From Macrotrachela quadricornifera (lineage: Eukaryota > Rotifera > Eurotatoria > Philodinida > Philodinidae): a stretch of DNA of 64,000 bases. Position 1 is the first letter of the stretch. The number at the start of each line of letters is the position of its first letter. Positions 3,757-64,000 of this stretch are shown here, piece after piece. The notes beneath the pieces were generated by a model. It was not told the DNA's origin and searched no databases. It saw only the letters and a list, made by a program, of their open reading frames with translations. Made by a program: the position numbers and the translations under genes. Location: NCBI GenBank assembly GCA_022393335.1, contig JAJEKB010021076.1, positions 555,093-619,092 on the forward strand. The letters are read 5' to 3'.

Positions 3757-3862
3757 TAATATAATGAAAAAAGAAAAGATTAATTGTAAATTTATGATAT
3801 TTGAGAATAACATGAAAAAAATTAAAATAAAATAAAACGCAGGGAAATAAAAAAAAAGCCTT

Positions 3863-32120: not shown

Positions 32121-34031
32121 GCGTGACCAACTGTCAAGAGGTCCCAATTCTCATTCATTCATGTAGGTTCAACTATCTATCAGAAAAACGTGATCTTTTT
32201 ATCACTTATACCACTTGTATAATGCTATTGATCTGTAACTGTTTGAGATATAGATATTGGTAAAAATGAGGATTACTAAGGACATCCTTATGTTTATATG
32301 GTAAACATGCTTCACACCATATTTATTGATATATTGTCCTCGCTATATATTCTATATATGATAATATTCTATCGAGTCTGTCCTAGCGTCGGGTTCTCAT
32401 TGGATCATTCCTAATCAAATCGTGATCTTTTCGCTTTCTCTCGTTTCCCGTTTTCTTTAACATACTTTAACTCGATAACACACACAAACGTTTATCACCC
32501 TTGGATTATGTCTTCCTCACAAGTTAAATAGAATTGCTCTCAATGTGATTATGCTCCAAGTGATCGTCGTAAATATTGCACTGAATGCCACTCAATGTTA
32601 AAGTGGACATGTACTGGTTCATCAAGGTCCGGTCTGTATAAGAATTATTATCGTCACCGTGACAACTTTAACTTTTGTACAACAGAACTTGAAGAAGAAA
32701 AACAACACGAAATGGAAGAGAAACAACAACAACTTCGGGCTTTAGATGATAGTAAGTAACATCACTCTATTAGTTTACATATGCGTTTCTTAGTCAACTA
32801 TTTTATGCTACCAAAGTAGTCAAAATAATAACTATTGTACTTTTTTGTACTGTAGAACAACATCCTTGGTCCGAATGGAGACGTACCAATGCATCTTGCA
32901 TTCAACATACGGGTTGTGACGTCGAACAAATACAAGAATTATACTCTATGTGTGAAAAACCACTGATAAATTATTGCTCTCATAAGAACCATCGACTTAC
33001 GGACAGTGCTGCTACCTTTTATTTACCTCCTATGAATATGTTTGTCGTTACACTATGGCACTTAAAACATTATCATTCTGAACGTTATATTGCTTCGGAA
33101 TTGAATATAAGTCAACAGTTATCGATATTTTACATTCGTGTGTATATCCAGAATTAATTTCAATACCTGCTAATATATCTAGCAGTAGAACACCACACGG
33201 ACTTCAGTGATACCACAAGCTAATAGTCGACTCGACTTTTATTGCAATTCTGGAACCTTATGATTCACAACTACGTAAAGCATATTATCACGCAAAAAGT
33301 TCAACAAATTATGCATTGAAAGTACAAATAGCTTGCGATTTTCATCATCGAATAGTACATGTATCCGAATGTTATCGTGGAAGTGTACATGATATTACAG
33401 TTCTAAGAGAATCAGGACTATTAGAATATGTAAACGATGATATGCAAATTATTGGTGACAAAGGATACATTGGTGAAGAATATGTAGCGACTCCAAGAAA
33501 GAAGTCTTGTGGACGTGAATTAACAGATGAAGATAAGGATTTTAATTATGACATTAACAGCGCAAGAGCAGCTATTGAAAATATTAATCAACGTCTGAAA
33601 ACGTATGCAATTCTTGGTGGTGTCTACAGAGGAGCTATTGACGATTTTCATAAGGCAACAAAAATCGTACAAGCGGTTTGTGCTCTATGTAATTCGAACT
33701 TAATAAAACATTCTATTCGTAGATGGATAAAATCATAACTTGTATTTTCTGATTAATTACTTAATAATAAAACTTATTGTTTTTTCATGTTGTCACAAAT
33801 ATCTAGTGGAGAATGGCGTACGTTAACAAATACGATGTGAAGCATGTTTACCATATAATCATAAGGATGTCCTTAGTAATCCTCATTTTTACCAATATCT
33901 ATATCTCAAACAGTTACAGATCAATAGCATTATACAAGTGGTATAAGTGATAAAAAGATCACGTTTTTCTGATAGATAGTTGAACCTACATGAATGAATG
34001 AGGATTGGGGCCTCCTGACAGTTGGTCACGC
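32121..34031 (+). mobile_element. PIF/Harbinger (IS5-like) DNA transposon, about 1.9 kb
   Basis: Terminal inverted repeats of about 200 bp: GCGTGACCAACTGTCAAGAG at 32121 and its near-perfect inverse ending at 34031, with matching subterminal sequence (32121 to about 32315 and about 33837-34031). It encodes one transposase gene on the plus strand. I could not settle the target-site duplication. Confidence 0.85.
32506..33738 (+). pseudogene. Harbinger-like DDE transposase, two exons, lightly damaged
   Basis: ATG at 32506 opens an exon with a Cys pattern CSQCDY...KYCTECHSM, a probable zinc finger, ending at a GTAAGT donor (about 32753). An intron of about 100 bp ends at TGTAG (about 32858). Exon 2 holds a helix-rich DNA-binding part and the DDE nuclease: first Asp in LIVDSTF, second Asp in GSVHDITVLRE, Glu in RAAIENINQRLK. 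The intact stretch 33316-33738 covers the last two. Lesions: in-frame TAG at 32527, a frameshift near 33119 and a TGA in place of an expected Trp near 33210. Only three lesions and well-matched ends suggest recent activity. Confidence 0.75.
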
Positions 34032-35824: not shown

Positions 35825-38800
35825 ATGGTTAAGAAAACCACAACAGAATCATCAACCACGATAGTGAATCATCTTTTGTTTTATGTCAATGGAGAAGAAG
35901 TCATTGAACATCATCCAGATCCAGAATGGACCCTTCTTTGGTATCTAAGGAATAGTAAGTAAGATAAATATTTTCAACAATTTGAAATAATATGCTCTGT
36001 AAAGAATTGTGTCTTACGGGTGCTAAATTGAGCTGTGGCGAAGGTGGTTGTGGAGCATGCACAGTTGTTGTTTCACAGTGTATTGATCAAAATTCTGGTG
36101 AAATTGAGCATCGTACAATAAATAGCTGTTTAACACTTCTCTGTTCTGTTGATGGATGTCATGTTGTCACTGTCGAAGGTTTAAATTCAATAAACAAATT
36201 GAATCTTCACCCAATTCAATCTCGTCTTGCTGAATTATCTGGTTCACAATGTGGTTTTTGTACACCGGGTATGGTCATGTCTCTCTATGGTGCAATTACA
36301 TCAAAAAATGATTCCTCATTAACTATACAAGATATTGAAGAATCTTTAGATGGAAATCTTTGTCGATGCACTGGATATCGACCAATTCTTGATACAGCTA
36401 AAACATTTGCATGCGATATAGAGAAACTACCGAAACAACAATCATCAAAACTAACATCGACAACATTGGACAAATGCCTTTCGTTTGCAAATGCAGACGT
36501 CTTACCACCGGATCAATTACAATTTCCTTCAAAACTGAAAGAATACACTCCTCAATCCATTCATATTAAAGGTCAGATCTCACTTAATTCTTGTATTGAT
36601 TGTATTTATTTAATATTTAGGAACCTCGATCGAATGGTATCGTCCCATATCACTTCAAGAATTACTTTATCTTCGTTATACTTACTCAGGTGATGCTTCG
36701 AAACTCGTTTTTGGCAATACTGAAGTTCAAATTAAAACAAAATTTCAAAAATGTATATATCCTCGCCTTATTTCTGTCACGCACATTAAAGAATTGCAAA
36801 AACTTGAACAAACTGAAAATTCATTAATTATCGGTGCTGGTGTGACATTTTCACGTTTAAAAGAAAAATTAATTGAATGGAAAGATGAAAAAAGAAATGA
36901 TGGTGGCTTTTCTCAAGCTTTAATTAATCAACTGAAATATTTTGCGTCAACACAAATACGAAATGCTGCTTCACTTGGTGGTAGTATTATCACTAAGTAT
37001 GTCATTTTAACTTTATTTTGATAAAGTAGTTCAAGTTTAAGGTCTGATTTTAAATTTAAAAATGAAAGTTGAAGTTCTATATCTGAGCGAAATCAAAAAG
37101 AAATTTACAGATTTTAGCGATACGTTTTTTCTAGTTCGGACATCAATTCGATATTATTAGCTGCTGGTGCAACGCTCGAGTTTCATCAAGCGACTGCTAA
37201 TAAAGCTCGACATATGTCGTTGCATGACTTTTTCCGTGGTGATCACCATGTGTTGATGGCCGATGACGAAATATTGGTCGGTGTCTGCATTCCTTTTCCA
37301 GACCCATCTCATAAATATTTTATTCAATCGTACAAACAAGGTCGTCGACGAGATAACTCCAAAGGTATTGTCACTGCTGCCTTTCAAGTTCAACTTAAGC
37401 AATCGAATATAGACAAAGAGCAATGGCAGATTGTTTCAGCTATTTTTGCCTTTAATGGAATGGCATCATCAACGATCTTAGCAAAACATACTCAACAAGA
37501 AGTAATTGGAAAACTATGGACAAGAGAAACTATTACCAAAGCCTGTCAATCAATGCTGAAAGAAATGCCACTCGATGAACTAAGTCCAAGAGGCCAACCA
37601 GAATACAGGTAATGTATTTTAACATTATAAAAGAGACAAATTAGATAAAAGAAAACTTATATGTTCTATTTAGACGAACGCTTATCCAATCATTTCTTTT
37701 CAAATTTTTCTTCTATGTTTGCTCCGAACTGCGTTTATCATCGATTGACACTACGGTTCTTTCAGCTGCCTATCCTTATTGTCGACCAATATCTCATGGT
37801 CAACAGACTATAACCGAACGACCTGACTCGCAGAAAGTAGTTGGTAGTTCGATACCACATAAATCAGCATATTTACATACGACAGGAAAAGCTATATATT
37901 TCAGTGATATGCCATCCTTAGTCAACACACTTCATGGTGCATTTGTATTGAGTACTCAACCAAATGCTCGGATTAAACATATAAGTAAGAATAAAATTTC
38001 GATTTCGATGTAACTAATCAAAATGTTGCTCTATTAGATATTGAAATCGCTTCAAAAATACCCGATTTTGTCTCATTTGTCAGTCATATCGATGTACCAG
38101 GTACGAATAAAACGGGACCCTTTCTGCATGATGAAGAAATATTTGTTTCATCAATTACTCCATGTATTGGAGCTGTTATCGGTCTTGTTCTTTGTAAAAC
38201 AGAAAAATCAGCTCATTTAGCTGCAAATCTAATTCAGATTGAATATGAATTATTAACACCAACAATATTTACCATTGAAGACGCCATTGTTCATAAATCT
38301 TATTTGTGTGATGAACGATGTCTAAAACAAGGTGATGTTGACAAAGGTCTAGCCGAGGCCGAACATGTTTTGGAAGGAACAGTGATGATTGGCGGTCAAG
38401 AACATTTCTATATGGAGACAAATCATTTCTTTGTAATACCATCAGATGATGATAAAGAAGTGGCATTGTATTTTGGAGCACAAGCACCAACTACAGCTCA
38501 AGAACAAGTTGCATCGGCACTTGGTCGAGATGCCAGCCATATTACTTGTCATGTAAAACGTATTGGTGGCGGCTTTGGCGGAAAAGAATCAAGAGTGTAA
38601 GTAAAATCAGTATATCTCATATGTTTTGAGATGTTATAGTTTGATTCATATTTTAGAAATGGTTTGTGTGCTGCTGTTGCAGTAGCTGCAGTGAAAGTTG
38701 GTCGACCTGTTCGGTTGAATATGGAACGTCAAATTGATATGAGTGTTACTGGACAACGACATCCATTTAAAATTGATTATAAAGTGGGCTTCACAAATGA

Positions 38801-40424
38801 AGGTCGTTTGTTAGCACTTGATATTCAAATGTGGAGCAATGGTGGTTGTACCATGGATTTATCAATCTTTGTTATGCACCTAGCCATGTTACAGATGGAT
38901 AACTGTTATCATTTTGAAAATATTCGCATATGTGCCAATATTTGCAAAACACATTTACCATCTAATACAGGTTTGTTATTAAAAAATCACTATCAAAAAC
39001 TGATAGACTTTTCGTTCAATTAGCCTTTCGTGGTTTTGGTGGTCCTCAAGTGATGATAGCATGTGAGACAATTATCGAACGTATTGCCACATATCTTAAT
39101 ATTGATCCATTAACCATTCGTCGTCTTAATCTATACAAAGAAGGAGACATGACCCATTTTAAACAACAGTTAAAACAATGGAATGTTCCACGGTTACTCG
39201 ATGAACTTGTAGAATCTAGTGATTTCTTTCAACGTCAAAAGAATGTCAGAGAATTTAATCACACAAATAAGTATCGAAAACGTGGACTTGCTATTGTTCC
39301 AAACAAGTATTGTATTGGCTTCCTAACACCACATCATCATCAAGCAGGTGCACTGGTACTTATCTATAAGGATGGTTCAGTAGTCGTAAATCATGGAGGT
39401 ATATCAAAAAGTTTTTATCAAGTAAAAACATGCAAAAGATTTTTTGATTTTCAGGTGTGGAAATGGGACAAGGTTTACATACAAAGATGATTATGATCGC
39501 TGCTGAAGTTTTACTTTGCAACATTGATCGTATTCGAATCAGTGAAACAGCAACAGATAAAGTACCTAATACTACTGCTACTGCAGGATCGTATTCATCC
39601 GATCTTAATGGAATGGCAGTTCGTTTTGCATGTGAACAACTTCGAGAAAGATTAGATACACTTCTAGTTGATAACAATATCAATCTTTCGTGGGAAGACT
39701 TGATTAAACAAGCGTATCTTGCGCGTATCGATCTATGTGCTCGTGGATACTACTCTGCTCCTGGAACGTTCAAATTTGATCTTGAACAAAATTGTGCCCG
39801 TACTAATTATTTTACTCAAGGTGCAGCAGTGAGTGAAGTCGAACTGGATACATTAACAGGTGAATGGCATCTTCTACGTGTTGATATCGTTATGGTATGC
39901 TATTTTTGTATCAAATAAAATATAAACATCTCTATTGATGATTGATTGTTTAGGATCTTGGTCGATCACTTTGTCCACAAATTGATATTGGTCAGATAGA
40001 AGGTGCCTTTATGCAAGGTGTTGGGCTATATACTATGGAAGAGCTTGTTTGGGGCGATCATACACAGCATAAGTGGATAAAACCCGGCGAATTGTTTACT
40101 CGAGGACCGAATACTTACAAAATTCCATCATTTAGTGATGTTCCACTCGACATGCGTATCTCATTTTTGTCTAATACATCGAATCCAAAGGCCATCTATT
40201 CATCGAAAGGCATTGGTGAACCACCGATGCTACTTGCTGCTTCGGTCTTCTTTGCTCTGAAACATGCATGTATGGCCTATCGACAACAAGAAGGATTCTC
40301 AGAATATTTTACACTTCATTCACCAGCTACTGTTGAACGACTTCGAATGGCTTGTGCTGATGAATTCACTCAACGTGCATGTCCTCATGAACATCAAACA
40401 TTTCAAATAAAAGGTTCATTTTAA
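35825..40424 (+). CDS. Xanthine dehydrogenase / aldehyde oxidase (10 exons)
   Basis: Exons: 35825-35954, 36005-36571, 36621-36996, 37135-37608, 37674-37984, 38038-38596, 38657-38970, 39024-39398, 39455-39894 and 39954-40424. All joins are in phase, about 1,338 residues (family about 1,330). It is a molybdo-flavoenzyme oxidising hypoxanthine/xanthine or aldehydes. N-terminal 2Fe-2S domain: Cys54, 59, 62 and 85; second cluster Cys126, 129, 163 and 165 (CGFCTPG, CRCTGYRPI). FAD domain: KLVFGNTEV and IRNAASLGGSI. Molybdopterin domains: GGGFGGKE with Glu803, FRGFGGPQ with Phe915, and the catalytic base Glu1271 in KGIGEPPMLLAAS. Glu803 and GFGGPQ favour XDH, but the position of bovine Arg880 is Leu881, as in aldehyde oxidases. 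Introns are 49-138 bp. AATAAA is at 40512-40517. The gene looks intact. Confidence 0.93.
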
Positions 40425-44457: not shown

Positions 44458-44728
44458 GTAAGTTCTTTGAATGATGATTTTGTTAGAATACATCTCGAAT
44501 CTAGAAATTCCAACAAAGTAGTTACTGTAGTTATGTGATATACAAGGAACACTGTACAACAATCAACATGACCATTCTGAAGTTTCTCGAAAGTCTTGTA
44601 AGATCTTTAGTCAAGAGGCAAAGATCGGAATCATCGAATCTAGAATTCCGAGAATCGTAGAATTTCAAGAATTTCGTAGGATTGCAAGAACTCCTTTCAG
44701 TTCCATAGAACTTCTTAGAATATCTAGT

Positions 44729-45121
44729 CTCCTACGGACAAAAAAAACGGCCTTTTTACATTTCATTTTTGCACCACATAAAACACTGTATTAATAAAAA
44801 ACAAAATGTATCACAAGATGCAGCGTGAAAAAAACTGCAATCTTCTAAAGACAACGTGTTTTATAGTTACACTTTTTGTTTTCAAAATGGACAAAATTTG
44901 AAGGCACCTGTTTTTGACTTTTAGAAACTTTTTGATACCATTAGCTGCACAGAATTTATCCATTTTGACAGCAAAAGCGGCAACTATAAAATAAACTGTT
45001 CGTTGTAAATTGTAGAGCTTTTCACGCTGCATCTTGTGATATATTTTGTTTTTTATTAATACAGTGTTTTATGTGGTGCAAAAATGAAATGTAAAAAGGC
45101 CGATTTTTTTGTCCGTGGGAG
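44729..45121. mobile_element. Foldback element, about 393 bp, with the GCAGCGTGAAAA motif
   Basis: Ends TCCTACGGACAAAAAAAA on the left and the inverse of TCCCACGGACAAAAAAAT on the right. Arms of about 110-130 bp pair through ATAAAACACTGTATTAATAA. Each arm carries one copy of the motif (44805-44840 and 45003-45055) found also in the 2767-3756 element and, as solo arms, at 48020 and 54911. Confidence 0.75.
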
Positions 45122-46242
45122 AGTAAACTTATATAGGTGATCGCAGCACTTCAGAATACAAACATGAAGATTTCAGTAAGAGAACATCTTTGTTTTGTTC
45201 TGCCCATAGCATTCCCGGGTATAAAAACTGTTTGCTTTGTTTCTGGATATAAAGCAAAACTTTATTCTGAATTTAAAAAGGTTTGTATAGAAATCTTAAA
45301 GACTCTGGGACTATGGTTGATTCTGAAGGGTACAGGAAAAAATCGAAGATTCCATTAAATTTCAGTCTTCCACTATTTCTCCCTTATCTTTAGCCCTTGA
45401 TGCACCATTTGAATATTTGAAGCCCGATGCGATACAGTAATCAACAAGCCAAACTAAGCGGAAACTTAGAGACGTGCAATTTTGATAAAAAAACAGTAAA
45501 ATACTGACAGTCAGCCATCAACACTGAGCTCACTAGAAACATACACTGACGCTGTATGCAGTGCCAGTTACAGTCAGTTTTTCAATGAATTCAGTGTTGA
45601 TGACGCCGATGATCAGTAAACTGGAATTGTACATCCGTACACAAACTTCCTGATTACAGGCGCGACGAAAAGGAGGATGTCGCTGTGATGTCATAACACA
45701 TTTTATTGGCTGCTACGAACATCAGAGAAAATGAAAATTTTCTGTTCCGATTCTAATAAGTTTTATTGTCTCAATAGTTTTAAAAAGAAACATCATATTT
45801 TATCATAAATGATTCAAAAAATATCCGAGAAAGTAGATAATATACTACGCATAACTTCCTAACTGAATAAAAATAAAAGAATGTATTTTTTCAGTTATTC
45901 TCTTTTTAAAATATAATGAGCTCCTCAAGTAGGACCCGTCGCGTCGAATGTGCTAAATAATAATACAGTCTTCTTTTGTTTTTCGGAGTCAAAGCCTTCT
46001 ATTAAGCAAAAAATATTAAGAAAAGAAACACGCAACTCGAACAAAAATATGATGTTACATCAGGATGGGCTGAATGAAAACAATGAAGAGACTCTTGGCA
46101 AATGTCTTGTGTCTCCAAGCAAGCGAAAATGTACAAAATGTATGATAAATATAATGTGAATTGTAGTTTGTGTGAATTTGACGAAAAATAGAAGCATAAT
46201 AAAAGTAACTAATGATAAATACAAATCGTATAAGCAGTTCGA

Positions 46243-48310: not shown

Positions 48311-51300
48311 ATGGATTGTTATACTGGTGATTGGTCAACATGTCTTCACATTGAACTGATGAATAACTTAGAAAAATGTTCACAGAAAGTGTCAATAGAG
48401 TTAGATGAACAAAGTTTATCATATGCTGAAACATGCAATTGCGTACAACATCTTGCTTTGGCTTTACTCAATATCGATTTATTTCATCGACACAAAATTA
48501 TCTATCAAATAGTGGAACGTAGTATTGAATTACCATTAGGTATGTTCGCCATATTTACTGTTGGTCGCATTTATTTTGGTCTCAATCCAGATGAGTAAGA
48601 AACTCTAAATTAATCTAATGCTAATTCTCATTGCTATTTTATAAGTCAATACATCATTAAAAATTAAATCTTCTCTTGACACTATTGAAAATTTTCTTTT
48701 CCCATGTCCCTAAACTCAAAATTATTTTTCAAAAAAATAAATCTCGCACTAAATCTTTTTTGATTTAACTGATAATTAAAGATATAAACTTCGAACGTTT
48801 CCGAGGATAATTATTTTAGTCTTATTCGAAACAAATTTGGTTAGGATTTTCTCAAATCATTGATGAAAAGGTTGCCGGATAGTTATAAGAAAGATTTAAT
48901 ATAGGAAAAACCAGCTAGCGGCCACCCCCACATGAGGAAAGTTTTTTATCAATAAAAATAGAAAAAGTATTTCCTAAAACCAAAAGTACGCCGTCAATAG
49001 ATTACAAAACATGTTACAAGCTGTGACATGCTCCGTTTTTGGTTGACATAAAATCCTACTGATTGTCTGAAGAGTATCTAATAAAAATGGAAATCTCAGA
49101 TTTAAATCCGACTGTTATGTATACTTGAATAAGCAAAAATAATTGATGACAGATAGATTTTGATCAAACAATCCGAAAGTAAACTCATCCTTGAGCGCAT
49201 TGAGGAACTGCCTCTTAGATCGTCCTAATGCCTCCTATTTGTCGCATAGGACGCAACATGGAGTTAACTCCGAAACGTTTATTTAATTGCACAATTGAAA
49301 ATTTGTTTGTTTTAATTAATTATTTTGATAAGTCTATGGAATATCTATTCATTTTATAAACTCATATCATGTATGATAAGTGAGCGTAGAATTTGTTGAA
49401 GATTATTTCAACAGGGTAACAGACTATCACAATGATTTCTAGTGAAATAAATAGATAAATTCAATTTGTTCGTACCAAATTTGTATTCAATATATTGAAG
49501 ACTTCTTCGTCCCCTCGAAAAACGACCTTAGTCGAGGTAAATTCAAATGACATGAAATATTCAGGATATGTTAAGTCTAAAGTGGAGAAGCTATGCTAAA
49601 ATTTTCATCCCTATGCCATGACCTACCAAGGATACATTCATCAAATGAGCGTCAAAAATATCCAATCTAGTATTCGAATTTTTTTTGTCCAAACTCACTC
49701 TATATATTTTATTTTTTTTTGTTCTTCAAGAGTATATCAGAATACAATGTCTATTGGAGCCGTTTTTGATTCTTAACTTCTTACAGAAAAAAAGGATCCA
49801 TAAAGTCAATAACTCAAAAAATAGATGTCTATTTAAATAAGTGTTTGTATATATACTACAAGCAAAGCTTAATTTAATAAAGAACTTTAATAAATGATGT
49901 AGCTTAACAGACTCTTTGAAATAAAGGTAAAATATAAAAATTTTTAGTCAAACTAGAAGTTTTGGATAAACTACCTTATCATTTCTGAAAGATCTGAAGA
50001 TGGGCTACCTTTTCATGCATTTATCTCAGCTTTGAACTCTCTGGCGAAAACTGATGTTTTTCTTTTTCAATAGGAGCGACCTTAAGATGAACATTTGCTC
50101 CACATTTCTCGAACTGTCAATTAATTTTTTCTTAATATTTTCTATGCCATTTTGTAGTCCGTGAAATTCTCTATCGAATGATATATTACAATTCAGTTTA
50201 TTTTTTAATGTTGAGAGAAAATTTTTTTACGGAAAGCGGGATACATCAATGTTCGTATAGGAAAGCAAGGAAATAATGAAATTTTTTGTGATGGCTTAAT
50301 AATTTCTTGATGAACCATTCTTATCTTCGAACTCGACGGAGATATTTTTGAGAGAACTCTATACAGAAAAGTTTTAAGACAATTGCTTTACATTTTCAAG
50401 AGTTATCCTGAAAACGATCAAACGGGCACTGATCGATTTTATACTGTATGAAATTTTTGAACACAAAAAAAGGATCTTTGGAAAATTTTAGTTATATAAT
50501 CTTGTTACATTTAATTTTTCACCTGAAAAATAGAGAGAAGTTCTAATGTAAATCTGTTCTGAAGTTTATATTAACAGATCTAAGTCATAGAATCGTCTTA
50601 GCACTATTTGTATATTAGAAAAAAAAAGCTGTTAGCACAATTCCTGACGGGATTAAAAATGTAAAACACGATATACCGATCCTTACTAATTACTTCAAAG
50701 CCGTGTTTGATGTATACTTGGCTATTATTCCTTACTTTGAAGTATCGAACTGCAATAAGGAAATACTCCAACGATATTTCAACTAGACTTAGTTTGTACG
50801 TGACCTTTGATAGTCATCGAAGACGCATATCACCATGTATGGCAGATTTCAAACTGCACATCTCAAACTATATAATAGTTTCAAAAGACCATCTATCTCG
50901 ATTTGTGATGCTTTCTTAGCCTGTCAATCACGGTCTGTGATACTAATTTGACCTGTTGGTCACGGTCTGTGGGAAGGGGGATTCAAATTTCTACCCTTAA
51001 ACACTTTAACACTCTCTTTCAGATCGCGTTTCACAAGAAAATATGAGCTTTTATCATGATACTTTGAAAATTTGAAGTTTTCCACCTGTTTTCATTACTA
51101 ACGTCGAAAATCGATTACTGTCTTTAAAGTGTTTTGATTCGATACAGTCATGTTTTTTTCAAAAATAAACTAATATTGTGAAAACTTATGAGAAATTAGT
51201 TTATTTGTACATAAAACGCTTACTTTATGCTACTTTTTTTCGCAATATTTTAAAGCCTAAGATTACCCTTAATAAAAACTTTTTATTTTCAAGTTTCCGT

Positions 51301-54300
51301 AACGATCAATTATTCCTTTTTTAATTTAGTTCAGATTAAATAAAAGTTGATGAACATTTTATTAATAGTAGATCTAAGTGTTCTCTATCTATAATAAAAA
51401 ATCTCAGGCTCTATACTCTTCCATATTTAATCTTTTATTTTTCAAAGTTAAAAGAGAGAGACAAGTCTTAAATAAACAAATTTCAAGCAATCACTTTGAA
51501 GAAAACATTCTAACATTAATTTTTACTTTTTCAGTCCAATTCTCCAACTTTCGTCACGGATACACGATACGGCAATTACTGAATCCTTTGAAAATGACGA
51601 AAAAATCGATCAGGTACGTTTCTGAACTTTCATTGTTTTTGCTATTGTGAGTAGATTAGTATTATTTAACTTTGCTTCTCATAGGTAAATAAAGATCATG
51701 CATTTTTTTTCTAGAAAGTTAGTCAAAGGTTGAAAAATAATGTCCATTTAAAAAAGGAAGACAAATAGATATTTTTTTAATAATGTTTGAATGGATTGAT
51801 ATACAAAGCTGTGAGTTTTACTATTAAAAAGCGAAAATAAAAATGCATCGAACCATATATGAAAAGACTTCTTTAACTACTTCCCTAAAAAGTTTAGTTA
51901 AAGTTTCTCACAAAAAGTTGTCTTTTTATTATATGATAAAAAAACTGATTTTCCAACAAAAGCGGACAAAAACTCATATTGTCAATTATTTTTATGGAAG
52001 AATAGCATAGTCAATTGCATTTTAATGACTGAGATGTCTGATTAATCGTAGCTAGGAATAGAATCTCGATGTAGTTTATTAGTTCCTTGTTCAGCAGTTT
52101 TAGCGCATTCATGAAAGGCAATAAATGAATGTTGCAATTGAGAAGCATATTGTTTTTGTAGAAACTTTATTATCCACCTGCCTTCTTTTCTGAAATGGAC
52201 ATTAGCTGGAAAAAAGGTTGTTGGGAGAATTGAAAATATTATTTATAATCAGCTTGAGCAATGTCAATTCAACGAAAATTCCACTCAACATGATGAGAAG
52301 TTTAATTCTTCTATGAGCTGAATGAAGTATGCATGTATTTGGAGCCAATCGTATGAAATCGTGTTAACTCACATCTCAATCTTTATCATTCGTAATAACG
52401 CTTATCTATTATAATTGTAACTTGTTTCATTTAGGTATCATATCTATCTACTGCAATCATTCTTTGTCATCAAGCGACACAAGAACGAGTTCAAAAATTG
52501 ACGATGAACATGGATGTTCAGCTTGAACCATTCAACACCTCATCCTTGATTTCCTTGATGGCAATGACAGAAGCTTTGAATGATGATGATTTCGTTCGTC
52601 TCTCAAATTTAGGCGTTAGCAAGACGAGTTCAGCCTGTATTATTTGCACATCGGGTAGTACAGGCAAACCCAAAATCGTTGAACATACTCATGGCTCTTT
52701 AACATATAATGTTCATTGTATCGATAAAGCCCATTTATTTCGCTCTACAGACAACGTCTTACAGTTGGCCGGTTGCCAATGGGTTACTCATCTATGGGAA
52801 ACTACTGTTCCTCTTTGCTTGGGATCCACTGTTGTTTTTCTTCATCCCGGTGGACAACTCGATGTCAACTATTTGATGAAAACAATGACTCAAAAACAAA
52901 TTAGTGCTCTCAATACACTTCCGACAACCGCTCGTCTTCTTGCCGAACGTGATACTGCCAAGTCCAATGAAAGCGTATCATGTTTTCATTATTTGCGCGC
53001 ATATTTCCTTGGAGGTGAGTTAAATGGTTACTTTTCTTAAAATCATGAACTTATAATGAGTGCCTCATAATGAATGAGTCTCTCAGTATTTTGCATCTTT
53101 CTCCCCTATTTTCCAGCATCGAAAAAAAAAATTTTTTTTGTCAAAAGGTTTCTTATGAAATTCTCTACAAAACATAGACATTATTATTATTTTAAATGAT
53201 TTCCATTATTTTTTGACATGCGATACAATCAATTGGTCAGAGAATCACAACTTTTAAACAAGAACTATTGAGTAGGATTAGTGTGTCTCAAACCTATTGT
53301 GCGACGAAGGAGTATAACTCAGTAGATTTTGTAGAGAAAAGTCTGCTCTACAACACAGTATAATCGGTTTTTGAAATACATTTAAATACTTTGAATAAAT
53401 CTCGATGGAAGATTGTACAGGATCAAAGAAATGATAACTTCTGTTTTTAGAGATGATACTCTTTACAATGTTCTAACAAAATTTATTCATAATATTCCAG
53501 TGTATCTGAAAAATTATCTACAGGATTTTGTAGAACAGACTTTCCTCTACAAAACATACTATCTCATATATCTTCACAATACAACCGTTTTGAGATATAC
53601 TAATTGACTCTTCATATTAGACATCAGGTGACGTTGCATTCTCAGCTTATTTAATATTTCAACTATAATATTCTCATTTATAAATAGAATTCAAAAATAT
53701 TTTTTTACCAAAAGAATCAGTGAAAAAAGCTCTACAAAAACTTTTACAGAACACATTTTTTTTCTGAACACTATTGTGTTTTTAATTGACTTCTCATGAA
53801 ACAATCTGCTACAAACTTCTTGTTTGAAAGTTGTGTTCCTTTGACCAATTGATTGTATCGCATGTCGCAAAATAATGGAAATCATTTTAAATATTTTGAC
53901 ATGAAAACGTTCTCTTTTTGAGCAAATCATCTAATTTAAAATTCAACCATATCACTTGCTAATTGAGCAATAGAATATATATCCAACATCATTCGAGAAA
54001 CTTTATTGTATAAACTGTTGTATTCTAACTTCCAATATTTATCATCCATCAGATACAATACAGACATAGTTTAATTTTCACGATGCGGCATGTGAATTTA
54101 AATTCATTGGATGTAGATGTGACTTGTCAGTGCTGCAAATTTTTCATCAGTGATACGATTGCCTTTCGATTTATTGCTTAGGTTCGGCTGTTACTGAATA
54201 TCATATTAGTCCTTTAATGCGTATCATAGAACACCAACGGCCTTTACCACTTATTATAGTCGCCTATGGCGGATCGGAAATCTTAATGACCACTAAATAT

Positions 54301-57300
54301 GTGATTAATTGGGATCTGTCACACACGAATAATGAACGGAACATATTGCCAATCGGTAAAAACATGCTCGGACGGCAATGTTTTTTACGTGACACGAACA
54401 ATGAACAACGAATCACAACAAACGATACTATTGGCGAACTATGTGTTGTAGCAGGTAACAAATATGAATTTGGCGTTTTTAAGACATATTCAAAAGGGTG
54501 TGCAAAAATGATACTTTTCTTAATAGATTCATATACTTCATGCCTTTTGTCAGTTTTCTATGTAACTAAATATCTAGTCATCTATAAGGTTTGATCGAAG
54601 GTTTTCGGAGTCGAGGAATTCAAGTCTGTAATCGGTTTTCCAAAATTGTGGACTTCGTATTTTTCCTTATGAAAGTTTATTTTGAAAAAAAAAAATTTTC
54701 TATAAAGTTTAATGAAAGATTTACAGCAGATCTTCGAGTGGGATTGTATAGCTTGCAAAAACTTGTCTCATGGAATGAACCTTCTCTAACCGATTCATAG
54801 GATGGAACTATGCTCAAAAAAAATTTGTTTCATACTAGGATATTTCTATCTGCAAAAAATATGTGTTTCATAGAATGGGACTATCTTTACTATGAAATAA
54901 GCACTCGTGTGAATATTGTAGAGCTTTTCACGCCGCATCTTGTAGTATTATTTGTTAAAAAAGCATTCTGAAATCTTTCTATTTATATCGATATGAAAAA
55001 TACCGCGAACTTTTTGCCCTTACCTTATTTTTCTCGAAAAGCTGTATCAATGGAAAGCATTTTTTGTCAAATTAAATATAATTTCATCATTTGATTATTA
55101 TAAAACAGCATGTTATTCGAGAAAACTTTTCTTTTCTTTATATCTCTAAGTAATAACAATAATTAATCACATTCTTTTTCTTATTTGACAGAAAAATGTC
55201 AGATTATACACGATCAGATAGAAACAGACAAGATTTACAATTGGAATTGTTGTATGCTTCGTTTTTTATGAATCTTATATGTTCAAATAACATCGGACAA
55301 GAATCAGTCAGTTGATTTCTATACGTTTCTTAGTATTTGAATCTTGCTAGATTTGTGTAATCACCTTAGAGTTAGAGTCTGATGAAATCTTGAGAACAGC
55401 GAACGTATAGGATCTTGTCAGATTTTGTAACAAGATCATATGAAAAATCTTGTAAGCGTCAGATCTTGTACAGTAATGTAAGATCTTATGTCTGATTTTT
55501 TGACCTGGAATGTAAACAGGAACTTAGAGAAATCTTGAATCAAATTTAGAAGGAATCTTTTAGTTTATGATGCCACGGGCTTTCTTAAGAAATAGGTATT
55601 TCTAAGTAGAACAGGGAGTAGTTTATATAGTTTCCTACGGAATTCTGACATTTTCTTATCAAGATCTTTTGTAGGGTTGAAAATAAATCTTGATAGGGTC
55701 CTGCATTCTTAATCAAGGAGAATATGCGAGCAAGAAACAATGATAAACCCTGGAAACAGAAGCTATCAAAAATTGAGGTAGGATCACGAAGAAAGTTTAA
55801 CATGACATTCTGAGGTTCAGAATCCTAAAACATTTTTCTAAATTTTTTTAGAGAATGAACAGATTAGTACTATTGTAAAAATTGGCCGGTATTTCAAATC
55901 GAGAAAATCAACAAGAGAATTTAAAAATGCACAATAAGCTTTTCGAAAACTTCAAATTTCAAAGATCAATTTTGAATCTTTCTCATTTTGACAACATATT
56001 AAATCAATTAGAATAATGTATTCAGAATCAACTTCAACCACCACATTCAGTAATGTACGATATTTAGTTTTTTTGGATTAAAGAATCTGTAAAAAAACTG
56101 GAAGAAAAGAACTCTTTTAGATACCTTTCATTGAATTATTTTTTTTTAAATGAGTTTTAAATAAAATACAATTATCTTTGAATGAAAGGAAACCTGGGAA
56201 GTCAAAACGCACATATCCGTCCATTTTGCACAAAAGGAACGCCAAGCTTGGTTCCATAAATTTGTTTTCTCCAGACACAAACACAAATAACTCTGTTAAA
56301 TCAATACTCACTAAAGTCTATGCCACGACTTTCGAGTTATTTTCTGTTTTGAGCAGATCAATGAGTTACCAGAAACACATTGTTTTCAGTTTCTTTTGCG
56401 ATATTTTCTATTTCTGCATGTACGTGAATCAAGTGGGAGATCATTCAATGTTTAGAGATAGACTTTAATTATTTTCAAGTAGCTGATAGTTCGAATAGAG
56501 ATTGTTTTAAAAATATCGACGTATTTTTTATAGATAAGGGTGTCTTCAAATGCTATCGCGGTGATTCTGCATTAACTGCTCGTACCAAAGTGATGCCGAG
56601 TGACGTTTCAACAAGTGCTGGTTATGTGCGTACAGGTGATTTGTGTCGGTATAACAATAATGGAGAACTAGTTTACGTTGGACGTACAGATTTTCGATTC
56701 AAAATTTATGGTCAAATGGTCGAGCCCGAAGCTATCGAGCAAATAGTGATGAAAGCGAGCAATTTAGTCGATGCTTGTGTCGTGCGAAAGGAAGAAGGGA
56801 AGGATTTGAACGATGAATACCTATCATGTCATTTATTAGTGACTTCAACTGTTGATTCTCAAGATCTTATCCATCAAATTGTAGTCTACTGCCAACAAAA
56901 CTTGTCTTCATTCATGATTCCAGTCGCTTGGGAAGTGCATGACAAATTTCCATTGACACTATCGGGAAAAATCGATCGAAAGCAACTCGGTGCAATTAAA
57001 CGCATGCACAATGTTGATCATATTCAAGATAAGTATGTATTAGCTTTCTTTTCATTTCTTTCTTTCATTTGCGAACATATTAGACAAAGTAACGGGTGGC
57101 ACAGAACAAATTGTTTGCTTAGTGTTTTTAAAGTTTCTTTCCTATTATTGTTAATTTTAAACACTTTCTTCATCAGAAAATAGCTCTTGAAATTCACTAC
57201 AAAAACCATGTGTGCCTAGGTTCGAAAAAACTCTTTTAGATATATTTGGAAGAAAGACAAATCAAAAAGCTTCTTATCTACTGAGACGTGAAAATTCAAC

Positions 57301-59715
57301 ATCTCAAGATAAAAAGAGACAAATCCAAATTCTTTAAGAATTATTTTAGTCAAGATGTCTCCTCGATGTGTCCAGAGTATGAATTCTAAATCGATTAATT
57401 ACTTCGAATACTTCTCTTGTCAATAGTTAAAAAAAGTTCGCTCCAAGATCACACTATCTTTGATTGACATATAGCGTACTCGTCAGTTATTTGAAGAGCA
57501 TTCAAACAGCTTCCCTCTCACTTCTCTAACAGTAGGTCTGTCTTAAAAATAGCTCACTGTCACCTTTTCGTTATCATCATCTTAATCCTTCGTAAAAGCA
57601 TCAACTTTTTAGCATTTATAGAAGTAATTAAGAGCTACAAAATGAATTTAGTTCATATCGATAAGTAAATATGCTGCGCTCGATGTTTTCTAAGAAGCAC
57701 TTGGTCAGAACTGTCGTAAAAAAATAATGGGTAGCATAATATGGTGCCCCAGATTGTTAGCATATGTTGTAGAACTAAGTTGTTTTTTTGATAAAGGTGG
57801 AAAAGGATGCCGTATGAACACTTTGGTTCTGAATTCAAAACTACATTACTAACGGAAGGACTCAAGCCCATCAGGTAGTAGAGTAGATTTTCGTACTGAA
57901 GTTAGTACTGGTATAGAGTGCGTTGCTTTCACAGATCTTACTATCACGGTCGTTAGTGGTACAAGATTCACAAATGACAGAGACGTCGGTATCCAGATCA
58001 GTGCTAGCATAGAGTGCAATACTAACGCACACATCTTTACTATGGTGAACACCTTTTCATATAATACCAGCCATTTCTAGTGCGCCCTATGTAAACATAA
58101 CTGTGCCTCGAAGAAAGAGGTTATCCTCACTTAGGAGGTAATGGATACAGTCTTGTCGTCTCATTGTGTGAGTTAATATTCGAAAAGCTAAAGATATCTG
58201 AATACTAGGTTTTCAGATAATGCTCTAGAATCTTAATCCAATGGTTGATCGGTAATAGTAACCTTCTTTCATAATCGTCCTGTCAAGACATTCTTCATAG
58301 AGTATTGACCCTACGCTCCATTGACAATATCGGGCATACAACATTTACTCATAAATTTTAGCATTATTTTGTAACTTCTAGTTACCTCTATAAATGCTGA
58401 GAAGATGGTACTTTTACGAGAGATTTAAATAATGATAATAAGGGGTGACAATAAACTATTTATAAGATAGACCTACTGTTAGAGAAGTGAGAGAAAAGCT
58501 GTTTGAATACAATTTAAAGAGCTCACGAGAATACTATGTCAATCGAAGATAGTGTAATCTTGGAGCGAAAAGCATGAATTTCAATGTGAAAATGATTTTT
58601 GATGTGACTATCCATTAGAGCCATTTTGTGAACAGATTGTCCCCTCTTCTTTGGAAATCTATTTTAAAAGTACTCTGAGAGTCTGAGTTTGAGGCACTGT
58701 CGCTTGCTATAGATTAATAATATGGTCAGATTTTGAAAAACATAAGACTACGAAAATTTTAGAAAGTTTGAAAGTGATATGTCTGAAATCTGCGTTACCT
58801 CAAAAACTCGACTATTTCTGAAATTTACAAAATTTTTGAAAGATCTTCTTTTTGACTTAATTTGTTTTTGAGCATACTTAAGACTTTCGTATCCTCATAT
58901 TTTTATAATCTGAATAAATCTTGTTCGGTCTAGAAAGAATGTTTACTAGATCAACGCAAAATAAAAAACCGATATATGTATGTATCCATCAGATCTTGAA
59001 AAGTAAGAATATCTACGAAGTTACGATTAACTTTCTCCTATAAAATATTCGAAATATCCAATATGTAGAACTTAGTAAGTTTTCCAATTTTTTCATTCTT
59101 TCATAAGTTAGAGTTAGTCCAGGTGAACTTAAAAGAGTTATATCTACTGAGAGATATGTTCATGCAGGCTAATTTCTTTTACCGTTGATATAACTCATCG
59201 AATTCGGCAAGACAGACTAACTTTTGATCGAGTTAAACAACTGATATGTTTTTTGGGCGTTTATATGCGAAATACGCCCATTCCTTTTAAACAGTTTTTG
59301 GAGCTTAGTGTAGAAGCTTTAATTCCCATGTTTTACTTAAAGTTTTCATTTTTTCTATTGAAAACAAATAGACTGCCAAATGAGACAAATAGAAGTCTAG
59401 TTACAAACGACATGCCAATGACAGAATGGGAAAAACAGATTTTCGACATTTGGTGTCAAGTTTTATCAATTATTGATCCAGCGGAAATTAGTATGACAGC
59501 CCATCTATTCTCTTTGGGAGGCAACTCGTTTCACTTCATGAATATCATCGCTTTGTATCGAGATCATTTTGGCATTTCAACGCATTTTCCAACTATTACT
59601 GCTTTGCTTCAGCACGCTACTATTCGAGAACACGCTCAAATATTCGAACCAGCATACAGCAATGGCTTAACTATCAAAAAAAAGTTGCCTTTACAACCTT
59701 TGCACGTCATTGAAG
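48311..59715 (+). CDS. NRPS-type adenylation + peptidyl carrier protein gene (6 exons seen)
   Basis: Exons: 48311-48594, 51535-51613, 52435-53014, 54182-54454, 56534-57032 and 59372-59715. GT-AG junctions, all phases agree, about 686 residues without a stop. Adenylation motifs: LSYAE (A1), PLGMFAIFTVGRIYFGLNP (A2), CTSGSTGKPK 192-201 (A3), VAYGGSE (A5), IGELCVVA (A6), YVRTGDL with Asp441 (A7), YVGRTDFRFKIYG (A8) and LSGKIDRK with Lys551 (A10). Carrier motif LGGNSFHF with Ser624 for phosphopantetheine. It would activate and tether an acyl or aminoacyl group. The A4 position FDxS reads QWVT, so Asp235 is Trp. TAA just before the ATG leaves no room for a condensation domain. Introns are 821-2,940 bp, far above neighbours. 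The frame continues past 59715, but no further exon was found. Bdelloid NRPSs are thought to be of bacterial origin. Confidence 0.82.
48595..51534. other. NRPS intron 1 (2,940 bp), repeat-rich
   Basis: It holds a copy of the 2405-2487 repeat (49977-50060) and dispersed repeat copy B (about 50607-50900), the uninterrupted relative of the unit at 40739. I see no exon with adenylation-domain sequence inside, and none is missing: the domain reads continuously from LNPD across the splice. Confidence 0.6.
50607..50900. repeat. Dispersed repeat copy B (empty-site relative of copy A)
   Basis: Matches both flanks of the hAT at 40828-42126 in order (AAAAGCTGTTAGCACAATTC, AAACACGATATACC, then TGTATACTTGG, TATTATTCCTTA) without the hAT sequence. 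Confidence 0.65.
53181..53895. mobile_element. Inverted-repeat element in NRPS intron 3
   Basis: Left arm about 53181-53266 and right arm about 53817-53895 are inverted copies (for example GATACAATCAATTGGTC against GACCAATTGATTGTATC). The interior repeats TCTACAAAAC words. It accounts for most of the 1,167-bp intron. The exact ends were not determined. Confidence 0.65.
54911..54950 (-). repeat. Solo arm of the GCAGCGTGAAAA family in NRPS intron 4
   Basis: TTGTAGAGCTTTTCACGCCG followed by CATCTTGTAGTAT; same family as the copy at 48020. Confidence 0.6.
55375..55500. repeat. Cluster of AGATCTTG-like words in NRPS intron 4
   Basis: AATCTTG, GGATCTTG, CAAGATCATA, AATCTTGTAAG, AGATCTTGTA and AGATCTTATG occur in both orientations within about 125 bp. 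The same word makes up the termini of the MITE at 14502-14851, so this may be a degraded relative. Confidence 0.4.
57436..58570. mobile_element. Inverted-repeat element in NRPS intron 5, about 1.13 kb
   Basis: Left arm about 57436-57590 and right arm about 58430-58570 are inverted copies: TTCGCTCCAAGATCACACTA pairs with its near-inverse at the far end, and AACAGTAGGTCT with AGACCTACTGTT. Inside is a diverged local duplication (ATAGAGTGCRWTRC, about 57910 and 58010). No transposase. It explains half of the 2,339-bp intron. Confidence 0.7.
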
Positions 59716-62466
59716 GTGAGTTTGAGTTCGTTTCTTTTGTGAAACTTTTCTACAAACGAAGTTATGCATAAAGCCGTAATCAGAGCACACATGCAAAACC
59801 TATTTTAGTAGGCACATAAGGAAAAATGGTCGGTTCTTCTTTCGTAATAAAGTAATAATATAGAAAAACTTGTATGTTCGAAACATGAACGTGAGAAATC
59901 ATCATTTAAAATGTTCCGTGATTGCAATGGTTTAATTAGGTATCTTTCAATTCGCTAATGACGTAAAAATGATCAGAAAACTTGGTTTTATCAATTTATC
60001 ACGTTTATTCAACCCCATACACGATATCCAAACAAAAACTATAATTCAAAAAACTGACGATATGCTAGAAAATGCAAATACCCATTGGCAGTTTTGGATA
60101 AGAGACTTGTAGATCATCAATATTATACTAATAAAGCTTGTTAGTGGAACTCGTTTGAGGTCAAAATGTGGAACTCACGTACCATCATAAGAAAGATGTT
60201 AAATGAGTGCCACTTATCTTCCCTTTGTCGTAAAAAAAAACGTGAAGTAATCTTGACTGACTTCTTCTCCTTCCATTCGGTACTTAGGAAAACTCATGTG
60301 AAGATCTTTGTTTTAATCTCTTCCTTTTACTATGAAAGTCAACTCTCTGGTGTTTGACCTTAGGTGCTAAAGCCTCTAAGAAGAGTATCTGTAAGGAAGA
60401 AGGTTTCCTGAAGACTTCGACTAAAAACTTCCTTTCCGTTTTTTCAACACTATACAGAATTTTCCAAAGGTGTCTACCATAGAGAGACGAAAAAACCTCT
60501 GCCTAAAATTTATACTCACTATTTTCTTCGAAAATATATGTGAGTTCCACAAAAGCATTTCTAGTACCCTTAAAATATGGTAATAAAGTATTCGACAATC
60601 ACTGAGCTTTCCAATAATACATGTCAAGCCACATATACAATGTTTATTTTAAGAATGACATCAAGAAAATTTTCTATCATCGATTACCAGAAATCATTGG
60701 TGACCGAATTTATAACTTATTAAACAAGCGCCGTGAATCATTGTTTTCCAGATAATATAATGGTATAAGAATATATGTATTACTTGAGTTAGAGGGGAGA
60801 AAACATGAACAAGATGAATGATGTTGGCTTACTCCATTTATTATGCATTTTGAAAAAGTTTAGCAAAGTACATTAAAAATTTACCGTTTTAATATGATTT
60901 TTCTAAACTTCAAAAAAAATTGTTCGAAAAACTTATCGTTTTCCCCAAAGATGGACTTTTGTTGATAAAATTGAAATCAATTTCACACGGTTGAAGGTAT
61001 TCCCAATATTTTTTTTTAAAGGTCTGGATAAGACTCAACTATTGTCGGAACGGATTTTTAATAACTGAGTCTTGGTCTGAGAAAAATGAAATTTACTGTC
61101 GTATGCTCACCCTTTTTGTGCCTCGTGGCCACGGCATGTATACTAAAATGTTCATAAAAAATGCATTTCAAAATTCTGTTCGGGTAAAAGTTGGGCATGG
61201 AGATTAGCTTCAATTTGAAATCAATCCGAGCTCTGTATCTTTAACCGTATTCAAGTTATAACAGTTCTCGTGGAAATTAGTAAATCGACCGAAATTTTGG
61301 CTTGGTATGACATATCGGGCTCAAATTTTTATCAGAAGCGTTTCTCATTGGTTCTACTTAGTTCTAAAAATTTCAGCTCAAATGGACTGCTTTAAGTAGG
61401 AAAACCATCTTAAGGGGGAGGGAGCCTTAAAGTGATTTCCCAATGAACACCAGTTTTCTCAATTTACGAACATCCAAATCTCTTAACCAATCGATAGAGC
61501 GAGCCAACTTATGTATGCAGGCAAAAGATTAGACTTTTTTAATGCTAGCTTAAGAAAACTAACAGAGACCCACTTTTTGAATTTTTTCTGTTATACCCAA
61601 TGACTCGTAATATGGAAAAATTCAAAAAGTGGGCCTCTGCAATTTTTCTTAAGCTAGGATAAAAAAATCTTATCTTTTGCTTCCCTACATAAGTTGATGT
61701 GCTCTATCGATTAGTGAAGAGATTTAGGTGTTCGTAGTGGTTTATAGAATCAACTCACTGAGCCCTATGTACTGGTAGTATCAGCTCCCAATTTGGACGT
61801 GTTCGTGTATCTTACAAATATTCATTGGTTATCCTTCGAAAGTATAAATATCATATTTCGCTCAAACATGATGTCATGTATCATGACCATCTTAGGTAGC
61901 ACTTTCCCTTCAAATGTTTCAACCAATGAAATCTTAATATCAATACTAGATCAACATGTAGCCCATGAAAAACTGTACCAGATCCTGCAGATGACAGTCT
62001 GTTGTAAAGAGATTTTCTCAGCACTTGAGAGGTCTGAGCATTAATGGCATACCTAAAACATTTATAATCATTACTTTCTTGCTGAAGTTTTCATTTATGT
62101 TTACTATTTCTGAATAATTAATGCATAGTTTTGTACAGAATTTGATGCTCTTACAAATGAGGCTAATTTTAACTAGACGAGGAAAGTTTATGTTGGATGA
62201 ATTTTCTTTGAGTGCACTAAAAATAAGGTGCAACAAGCGGAGATTGGAAGCCATCCAATCGTTTTCGAAATCGATCCAATTTTGTCAAGAAAGAATCGCC
62301 ATAAAGTTTTGCATGAAATGATGTATTTCTTTCGGTTATCCATGGGTGAGCTGATTTACGTTCATATACACCCCTAGCCTTTATATTGATTTAAAGTGTG
62401 TCAAAACTATGATTCATGAATATTAAACAGTAACAGTTATAATAATATTTTAATGTCGATAACATC
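59716..62466. other. Sequence 3' of the last NRPS exon seen; no gene recognised
   Basis: It starts as an NRPS intron (GTGAGT donor at 59716). I found no condensation, thioesterase or reductase sequence. It contains the foldback at 61466-61735. Frames at 60166, 61793 and 62121 have no recognisable domain. Confidence 0.4.
61466..61735. repeat. Foldback hairpin, 270 bp
   Basis: Arms 61466-61590 and 61612-61735 pair along their length, with short gaps (ACGAACAYCYAAATCTCTT ends; CCCACTTTTTGAATTTTT near the loop), leaving a loop of about 20 bp. Confidence 0.75.
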
Positions 62467-63517
62467 AAAGGAACTGGTGCTTTTTCCATGGTCTATCCCC
62501 CCCCCCGCGAGATTTCTTTCCTTTCAGTTATTTTTTTGTAGAGACTCATGTGAAGATACAAGATCATTAAACCAGAATGTGGACTTTTTTACTGTTAGCA
62601 AAAAAACTGATATTTTAAGAAACAGTGAATTTCCATATAAAATACCACAAAAACAGTTAATATTTTGAGGTTTTAGTTATTGAAAATTGCTTTTGATGGG
62701 AAATAAACACGATATTCAGAATCAGTGTGCTAAAATCTACCATAAACTTTATTTTTTAGCGTGAAACATTTCCATTAAAATTTTTCCCCTACTCCCCCTC
62801 AGCGTTTTTACTTGATAATTTTTACCTGTACCCTCCTACGGGACGAAATTTTGATGGAAAATATTTCGCGTTAAAAATTAAAGTTTTTGGTGTATTTTGA
62901 CATGCTGATTCTGAATATGATGTTTATTTTTCATAAAAAGCAACTTTTGATAACGAAAATCTTAAAAAACTAGCTGTTTTCTGATATGTTTTGCCTCTTA
63001 AACTCTGCCTCTTCAGAAGTTTGAATCCTACTAATAAAGATTAACATAGTTTTTTTGCTTTTCTTTTTTTATTTGATAGATTTTATAAAGTTGCATTTGT
63101 GGTGAAAGTTTCACTTTTTAGCTGCAAGTCTTTCTGAAGTTATAGATTAAACAATGTCTGTGGTACGTTGAAAAACAAGTGTTAAAAAGAGAATTTTTTA
63201 TGATAGGCAGTGGTCGTCAGGATAGTCATTGAATAAGATGATTTTAATTTTATTTTGTAGAGAACATTCAGTTGTATATATAGTAAAAATTTGGTTATTA
63301 TTCATGCAACTATGGATAAGATATAGGTCTTGACATAATAAGGGAATAAATACCCATTGATGATGATCCTTCTCCTAAAATATTGATTTTTTCCTAAGAC
63401 TAAAAAAGTCCACATTCTGGTTTGTTGATCTTGTATCTCCACATGAGTCTCTACAAAAAAATAACTGAAAGGAAAGAAATCTGGGGGGGGGGGGGGGGTA
63501 TATGCACCAGTTCCTTT
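62467..63517. mobile_element. Inverted-repeat element, 1,051 bp, with paired poly-C and poly-G tracts
   Basis: Ends AAAGGAACTGGTGC at 62467 and GCACCAGTTCCTTT ending 63517. Arms of about 120 bp continue past a C-tract on the left (about 62499-62508) and a G-tract on the right (about 63483-63498). A second inverted pair lies inside (about 62735-62890, AACTTTATTTTTTAGCG against its inverse). No transposase. Confidence 0.8.
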
Positions 63518-64000
63518 CTAAAATTTTATGTAATATTGGCAAAAAAATTTAAACCAGAACTGACTATAAATACTGAATATAACTAGATGGCTTGTATTTT
63601 TTAAGATTTAATGCATACAATGAATCATCATTAACCCTTTCCGTCCGGCTACCAGAACACCGCTAGTTAAAAATTATTTTTTGGCATATTTATGCTTCCT
63701 TCATGATGGAGATGTCATAAATATGTTCGATGGAACAAAAAGGTTTTTCCTCGCCGAATACCTTGATGTTGCCATTTGGCAACATCCGGCCGTAAGGGGA
63801 CAAAAATTTTGGAAAACTCGTTTGTTTTTCGCCTGTCAATTTTCGTTTTCTTGAGGATTTTTTTGAATTCATATCTTCACACAACAATACAGCATGTCGT
63901 TTCGTCCGTCTTTTGATAAATAAAGCTGAAATATGCCTAGAATATGCTAAAAATTTGCACAATGATGCAAAATTAGCCAGTTTTTGTCGAAAAGCTCTAC
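63518..64000. other. Window end; possible piggyBac-like terminus
   Basis: TTAA at 63631-63634 followed by CCCTTTCCGTCCGG resembles a piggyBac target site and terminal repeat. A minus-strand frame (63962-63690) lies just inside but has no recognisable transposase motif. The partner end would lie beyond the window. Confidence 0.25.

Follow-up and report, generated by a model that had tools for sequence, protein, structure and literature searches.

A 64,000-nt stretch of contig C4501 of the bdelloid rotifer Macrotrachela quadricornifera (hereafter, the window) contains six exons of a predicted non-ribosomal peptide synthetase (NRPS) gene that are separated by introns far longer than those of a nearby XDH gene. 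The question raised by this locus is whether these exons make up an intact gene whose frame has survived a series of insertions peculiar to it, as the original prediction held, or are part of something larger, and how long introns fit into the history of the gene.

Splicing of the six exons between 48311 and 59715 yields 686 codons without a single stop, with agreeing phases and with GT-AG borders at all introns, so that the six-exon model and the five intron lengths first given for it were reproduced exactly (Table 1). The encoded protein matches the AMP-binding and carrier domains of Pfam; in the protein search, its closest relatives are P0001 of Adineta steineri (64%) and then P0002 of Rotaria magnacalcarata (41%), the top named non-bdelloid match being a bacterial synthetase (26%). 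The start methionine and the 284-nt length of exon 1 are common to copies C4071, C4741a, C4741b and C5005, and the start is shared with A. steineri P0001 as well. The donor of exon 4 has the same GTAAC in three copies, and the P0001 model reads through it. Acceptors at 59154 and 59168 would also keep exon 6 in frame, but the copies use the homologue of 59372, and this acceptor is preferred because homologous acceptors are present in C4741a, C4741b and C5005. Rfam and tRNA scans gave no match.

Table 1 Features of the window, with the comparator gene (coordinates in the window).
Feature	Coordinates	Strand	Description
XDH (comparator)	35825..40424	+	1,338 aa, nine introns, 8 kb upstream
Exon 1	48311..48594	+	start Met, N-terminus of A domain; donor GTAAGA
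Intron 1	48595..51534	+	2,940 bp; 330-848 bp in five other copies
Exon 2	51535..51613	+	79 nt
Intron 2	51614..52434	+	821 bp; 355-1,467 bp in five other copies
Exon 3	52435..53014	+	A3 TSGSTGKPK, A4 region; 74-76% nt at five other loci
Intron 3	53015..54181	+	1,167 bp; contains inverted-repeat element ~53181-53895
Exon 4	54182..54454	+	A5, start of A6; donor GTAACA
Intron 4	54455..56533	+	2,079 bp; 1,409 and 1,641 bp in two other copies
Exon 5	56534..57032	+	A7, A8, A10 lysine
Intron 5	57033..59371	+	2,339 bp; contains inverted-repeat element; 396 and 397 bp in two copies
Inverted-repeat element, low-copy	57436..58570	.	nearest relative C4200:107687-108964, 76-77%
Exon 6	59372..59715	+	carrier domain LFSLGGNSF; phase 1 end at donor GTGAGT
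Intron 6, start	59716..64000	+	fills remainder of window; end at 66019 (exon 7 candidate) or else towards 72087
Palindrome in intron 6	61465-61736		
Inverted repeats in intron 6	62467-62620/63373-63517		C or G homopolymer in each arm

The contrast in intron length holds up: the nine XDH introns (50, 49, 138, 65, 53, 60, 53, 56 and 59 bp) fall within the predicted 49-138 bp, whereas those of the window gene run from 821 to 2,940 bp and are about 15 to 50 times longer. The XDH protein itself is closest to that of Rotaria sordida (69%), with ~65% to Adineta. A search of the 450-Mb assembly (5,695 contigs) reveals five other adenylation-carrier (A-T) copies with the same exon boundaries (C4071, C4741a, C4741b, C2296 and C5005). 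Exon lengths of 284, 79, 273, 499 and 344 nt recur wherever the respective exon was located, except for exon 1 of C2296 (285); exon 3 is 580 nt in the window and 586 in the five copies, and for exon 2 of C4741b, C4071 and C5005, the position comes from similarity and the length of 79 nt was assigned, AG and GT being present at the ends. The introns, in order from intron 1, are 848, 934 and 563 bp in C4071; 842, 1,467, 3,580, 1,409 and 397 bp in C4741b; 846 and 979 bp in C4741a; 846 and 980 bp in C2296; and 330, 355, 3,180, 1,641 and 396 bp in C5005. Thus, all 17 introns measured in the five copies span 330-3,580 bp, and all 22 are at least 330 bp long when the window is included; introns 3-5 of C4741a, which span a 10.3-kb N stretch, and those of C4071 and C2296 that run off the contig ends are outside this count.

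Among XDH-family introns at 15 loci of the same genome, none of the 49 reaches 300 bp (median 58 bp), the sizes being estimates based on the spacing of neighbouring protein matches, with 78 of the 81 matches used (the lone C1121 match and two at the second C4475 locus, none of them in adjacent pairs, were omitted), gaps missing more than 25 query residues excluded, introns read through within a match uncounted and one estimate negative (-23). Two loci, C4834 and C4511, have non-coding spans of 5.6 and 2.1 kb that are possibly hidden in uncounted gaps, so the XDH family is not free of long introns and the contrast is strong rather than absolute. Given the shared boundaries and long introns of the five other copies against the short XDH-family introns, long introns are a trait of the A-T family. 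Moreover, intron 3 (3.2-3.6 kb) aligns between C4741b and C5005 in blocks at 78-84%, and hence was already long before those copies separated, and the A. steineri models appear to be split at intron 4, with P0001 entering the donor (VVAGNEYKLF against VVAGNKYEF in the window) and P0004 reading out of the acceptor (IFIDNGVF). The initial view of the long introns as insertions peculiar to the window gene is therefore not supported; only part of their length looks copy-specific, for example, the element in intron 5 (Table 1). Several other NRPS A domains are each contained in one uninterrupted frame (600-1,779 codons). Bdelloid introns are described, in part of a published study (PMC5916493), as two classes, most of 30-100 bp and a substantial minority far longer, and the measured A-T family introns are all in the longer class.

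The inverted-repeat elements that had been proposed for introns 3 and 5 were recovered by alignment of their arms, 53188-53264 with 53817-53893 in intron 3 (91%, E 1.6e-23) and 57437-57643 with 58366-58569 in intron 5 (81%, E 2e-47). Inverted repeats are present in six of the nine introns of the ten-exon model described below. Elsewhere in the window, one dispersed family of palindromic or inverted repeats occupies 2765-3758 and 44725-45125, fragments of it also occurring around 48 kb and within intron 4 (54889-54956), and the open frames 18096-19001 (-) and 32774-33738 (+) look, by eye, like mariner-type and DDE transposases.

The suggestion that the frame is still under selection is borne out. 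Over 682 A-T codons, dN/dS between the window and C5005 is 0.310 (95% interval 0.246-0.387) at dS 0.729 (Nei-Gojobori), and the value against C4741b is 0.332, which supports purifying selection on the predicted A-T part. When neutral drift was simulated over half the divergence (to 81% identity), none of the 300 runs remained stop-free, with 8.1 stops on average; recent decay of the gene is contradicted by both results. Exon 1 of C2296 was left out of the dN/dS estimates because of a 1-bp insertion. At that locus (C2296:18649-18933), one extra base soon after the start codon causes a frameshift, and the two other exons seen are open.

The claim that the gene is intact within the window fared differently. 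Exon 6 ends in phase 1 at a GTGAGT donor, which implies that the gene continues and that the window holds only the A-T portion of a longer, predicted A-T-C gene; a gene complete within the window was rejected on the same grounds. A. steineri P0004 runs on into a condensation (C) domain. In the remainder of the window (59716-64000), no C-domain match to P0004 was better than E 0.17. Further along the contig, with the numbering continued from 64000, two C-domain exons, 8a (72088-72636) and 8b (75229-75880), are in phase and stop-free, with a 2,592-bp intron between them. The gap is read as an intron because the two halves are in phase and its acceptor is common to four other loci (those of family II, below); an exon 8 broken by an insertion was considered and rejected for these reasons. 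A splice-aware scan turned up a weak exon 7 candidate at 66020-66149, which scores 16 where the runner-up on the strand scores 6 and the reverse-strand control 0.5, and loss of exon 7 from the window copy was accordingly dropped as an explanation. The exon 9 candidate at 81240 is weak as well: its score of 31 equals the control maximum of 31, and it has the right length and a PLSxWL motif. The original prediction had named missing exons with stops as evidence that would count against it; exons 8a and 8b are open, and for exons 7 and 9 there are weakly supported candidates.

Together, these ten predicted exons, two of them weak, may be spliced into one message of 1,172 codons over 33 kb, with introns of 821-6,304 bp (the five in Table 1, followed by 6,304, 5,938, 2,592 and 5,359 bp). 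In this model, AMP-binding (PF00501) scores 132 bits against a cut-off of 29.9, PP-binding (PF00550) 31.3 against 20.8, and Condensation (PF00668), in the frame assembled from the predicted exons, 86.4 against 30.6; the AMP-binding C-terminal domain (PF13193) is slightly under its cut-off (22.1 against 24.5). The Pfam match of the C domain starts after the exon 7 candidate, as it does after exon 7 in C5005.

The 12.4 kb between exons 6 and 8a leaves room for misassembly or for two separate genes, and with the weak candidates for exons 7 and 9, one could suppose that the window gene comes to an end with the carrier, or is truncated, and that the C exons are a remnant or a separate neighbour. 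We consider such a pair of neighbours unlikely: exon 6 has a conserved phase-1 donor, exon 8a retains the homologous acceptor, the phase and the VSIKRLRQAL start, and exon 8b appears to be under purifying selection, with dN/dS of 0.18-0.21 within family II at dS 0.96-1.10, albeit with wide intervals.

Within this predicted A-T-C gene, the two halves differ in their affinities. The window and C5005 proteins are 65.2% identical in A-T and 34.8% in C. The five other copies of this A-T family (family 1) are 61-68% identical in amino acids to the window in the matches to exons 3 and 5. By contrast, exon 8b has four relatives among the scored genome matches (74-75% nt), on C4677, C3754, C4411 and C3694; the window C protein is 64-67% identical to these four family-II loci (the best 104 of 137 candidates being scored in a genome search for condensation domains), shares with them an extra intron acceptor within exon 8 and is 37% identical to the A. 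steineri C domain. No family-1 A-T was found at the four family-II loci among the best 65 of 331 matches. Instead, the A domain at C3754, part of a single frame of 665 codons extending as far as the carrier end of the query, is 32-36% identical to that of the window, and the A segments upstream of the C domains on C4677 and C4411 are 36% and 34% identical to it; for C3694, no A domain was found among the best 65 of 331 matches. From the order A, 8a, 8b on the same strand, with an A-to-C spacing of 4-5 kb, C3754, C4677 and C4411 appear to pair a second A-T type (A-T2) with the family-II C domain (C_II). Since the family-II C domains at these three loci are preceded by a different A domain, there appear to be two old gene types, A-T1 + C_I and A-T2 + C_II, and the window gene appears to combine A-T1 with C_II.

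Several further observations concern these families. The family-II C domains fall into pairs, C4677 with C4411 and C3754 with C3694, at dS ~0.08 within and 0.27-0.32 between pairs, a pattern that would fit the alleles and ohnologues of a degenerate tetraploid genome. A further family-1 A-T is represented by its exons 5 and 6 at C2330:7737-8240 and 10043-10387 (70% and 59% aa), which might continue C2296 or C4071, the copies cut off by a contig end. With at least 104 condensation-domain matches, in which pieces of one domain may count twice, and open frames of 7,480 and 10,526 codons (C4465 and C4286), the genome is very rich in NRPS. No allele of the window gene combination was found among the scored matches. 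When the protein database was queried with the window C domain, the sole match was P0241, which lies outside the family-II group of the window in the tree; this search also missed A. steineri P0003 and is thus of limited sensitivity.

The C domain of the window gene belongs to a family other than the one that follows A-T in two other copies and in A. steineri, so that a chimera, with its joint inside intron 6, is the probable nature of the gene. Overall, we regard as probable, with some room left for doubt, the joint reading that the six exons provide the A and carrier domains of a predicted, longer NRPS of the A-T-C type, with a C domain from another family ~12 kb downstream, and that the two parts were joined inside the giant intron 6. 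For the window gene, the switch from the family-1 A-T to the family-II C is bracketed only between exons 6 and 8a; in two pairs of other copies, C4741a/C4741b and C4741a/C5005, a similarity breakpoint lies inside intron 6. C4741a and C4741b are located 46 kb apart on one contig, and their DNA is 79-92% identical in blocks that include exons 1-3, exon 6 and ~1.84 kb of intron 6 (exons 4 and 5 of C4741a lie in the N stretch), after which it is unrelated; beyond this point, C4741b runs on, in phase 1, into yet another type of C domain, the third, which is 24% identical in amino acids to that of C5005, and into a carrier-like end (FFEQGGTS, by eye), with a 50-bp intron and a total of 1,270 codons. 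C4741a and C5005, in turn, are 73-85% alike in collinear blocks and 92-98% past a point inside intron 6, with dS of 0.312 in A-T and 0.068 in exon 8 of C. Intron 6 is in phase 1 in all three of these copies, and in the window, exon 7 is a candidate. These observations make exon shuffling of NRPS modules via a giant intron of an animal gene the likely explanation.

The mosaic could also have arisen by gene conversion of A-T exons onto a family-II gene, a process that is partly compatible with the joining of cassettes. Part of a published account attributes abundant gene conversion to a bdelloid genome (PMC3846280), and the tails of C4741a and C5005 are 92-98% alike. Conversion alone, however, would not account for C4741b, in which a wholly different tail follows an A-T so similar to that of C4741a, and we give this alternative a low probability, about the same as that of the two neighbours.

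Another possibility, which we rate as less probable still, is that no swap occurred and that we are dealing with an old A-T-C paralogue in which the C domain evolved much faster. The C domain does evolve somewhat faster than A-T, as C5005 and A. steineri are 69.5% identical in C and 76-79% in A. However, the synonymous divergence between the window and C5005 differs too, with dS of 0.729 (0.611-0.874) in A-T and 2.374 (1.577-infinity) in exon 8, the intervals being non-overlapping. Furthermore, the window C domain has its four close relatives, three of which follow another A domain, and groups with them in the tree (100/100), apart from C_I of C5005, C4741a and A. steineri. An assembly artefact, that is, two loci wrongly joined in contig C4501, could be favoured by the richness of the intron in repeats and is the least credible of the alternatives, given that no match scored for exon 3 or exon 8b comes near identity (76% and 75% nt at most) and that exons 6 and 8a have the phases of the complete copy C5005. 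As a separate matter, the A domain of C5005 is surprisingly close to A. steineri P0001 and P0003, considering the ~65% for XDH; this closeness might reflect exchange between bdelloids or strong constraint.

With regard to the activity of the predicted chimera, in an alignment with 21 other synthetases, of which the named ones are bacterial, the A-domain motifs known as A3, A7 and A8 and the lysine of A10 are kept, as is the carrier serine (LGGNSF aligns with LGGHSL). The A4 aspartate (FD..S), which binds the amino group, is present in 18 of the 21 other rows and in none of the five bdelloid rows (V, I, I, V and A). The NCBIfam model for amino acid adenylation, TIGR01733, scores 182.6 bits, under its cut-off of 317.4. 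Thus, the enzyme might load a carboxylic acid other than an ordinary alpha-amino acid, or bind its substrate in an unusual manner. The condensation active-site motif HHxxxDG reads RHEAIDG in the window gene, with the first histidine replaced, and the C domain could condense or release the loaded acid.

Bacteria reshuffle NRPS modules by recombination; cyanopeptolin is reportedly a case of module recombination in bacterial NRPS operons. There, as here, the exchange is within related synthetase genes, but the putative exchange point here is a phase-1 spliceosomal intron of an animal gene. The closest counterparts are A. steineri P0001, P0003 and P0004, related A + C_I enzymes with the same start, the same donor and acceptor of intron 4 and 64-69% aa identity in A, but with a C domain of family I and models that are split and skip the carrier. 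In an NRPS family of bdelloids that is of bacterial origin, bears introns and is mobilised with transposable elements, the whole gene moves, whereas here cassettes appear to have been recombined within genes. Bdelloid NRPS/PKS genes are reported, in part of a recent study, to stem largely from horizontal acquisition (Nowell et al. 2024, PMC11258130) and to be associated with the response to a pathogenic fungus. The window gene is like those genes in its A, T and C domains, in its multi-copy family and in its best matches, to A. steineri and, among named non-bdelloid sequences, to bacteria. It differs in the five long introns within A-T, and the relevant portion of that study mentions recombination of modules in general, with exchange at a single intron undescribed there (PMC11258130). 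A search of the literature for intron-mediated NRPS module shuffling in an animal found none, which does not prove its absence.

We suggest the following mechanism. Mobile elements would inflate the introns at little cost, and the long phase-1 intron 6 would let A-T and C cassettes recombine with the coding sequence undamaged. Giant introns might then act as recombination platforms, with one A-T cassette pairing with at least three kinds of C cassette at intron 6 and exon shuffling diversifying the chemical defences of a largely asexual lineage; this wider proposal is tentative, and we think it somewhat more likely to be wrong than right. The same A-T cassette appears with three different C partners in one genome. 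If transcripts confirm the predicted structures, the horizontally acquired assembly-line enzymes of bdelloids would evolve by intron-mediated exon shuffling, which would provide a testable answer to the question of how chemical defences are renewed in a largely asexual animal and point to a possible role for long introns beyond that of accumulated debris.
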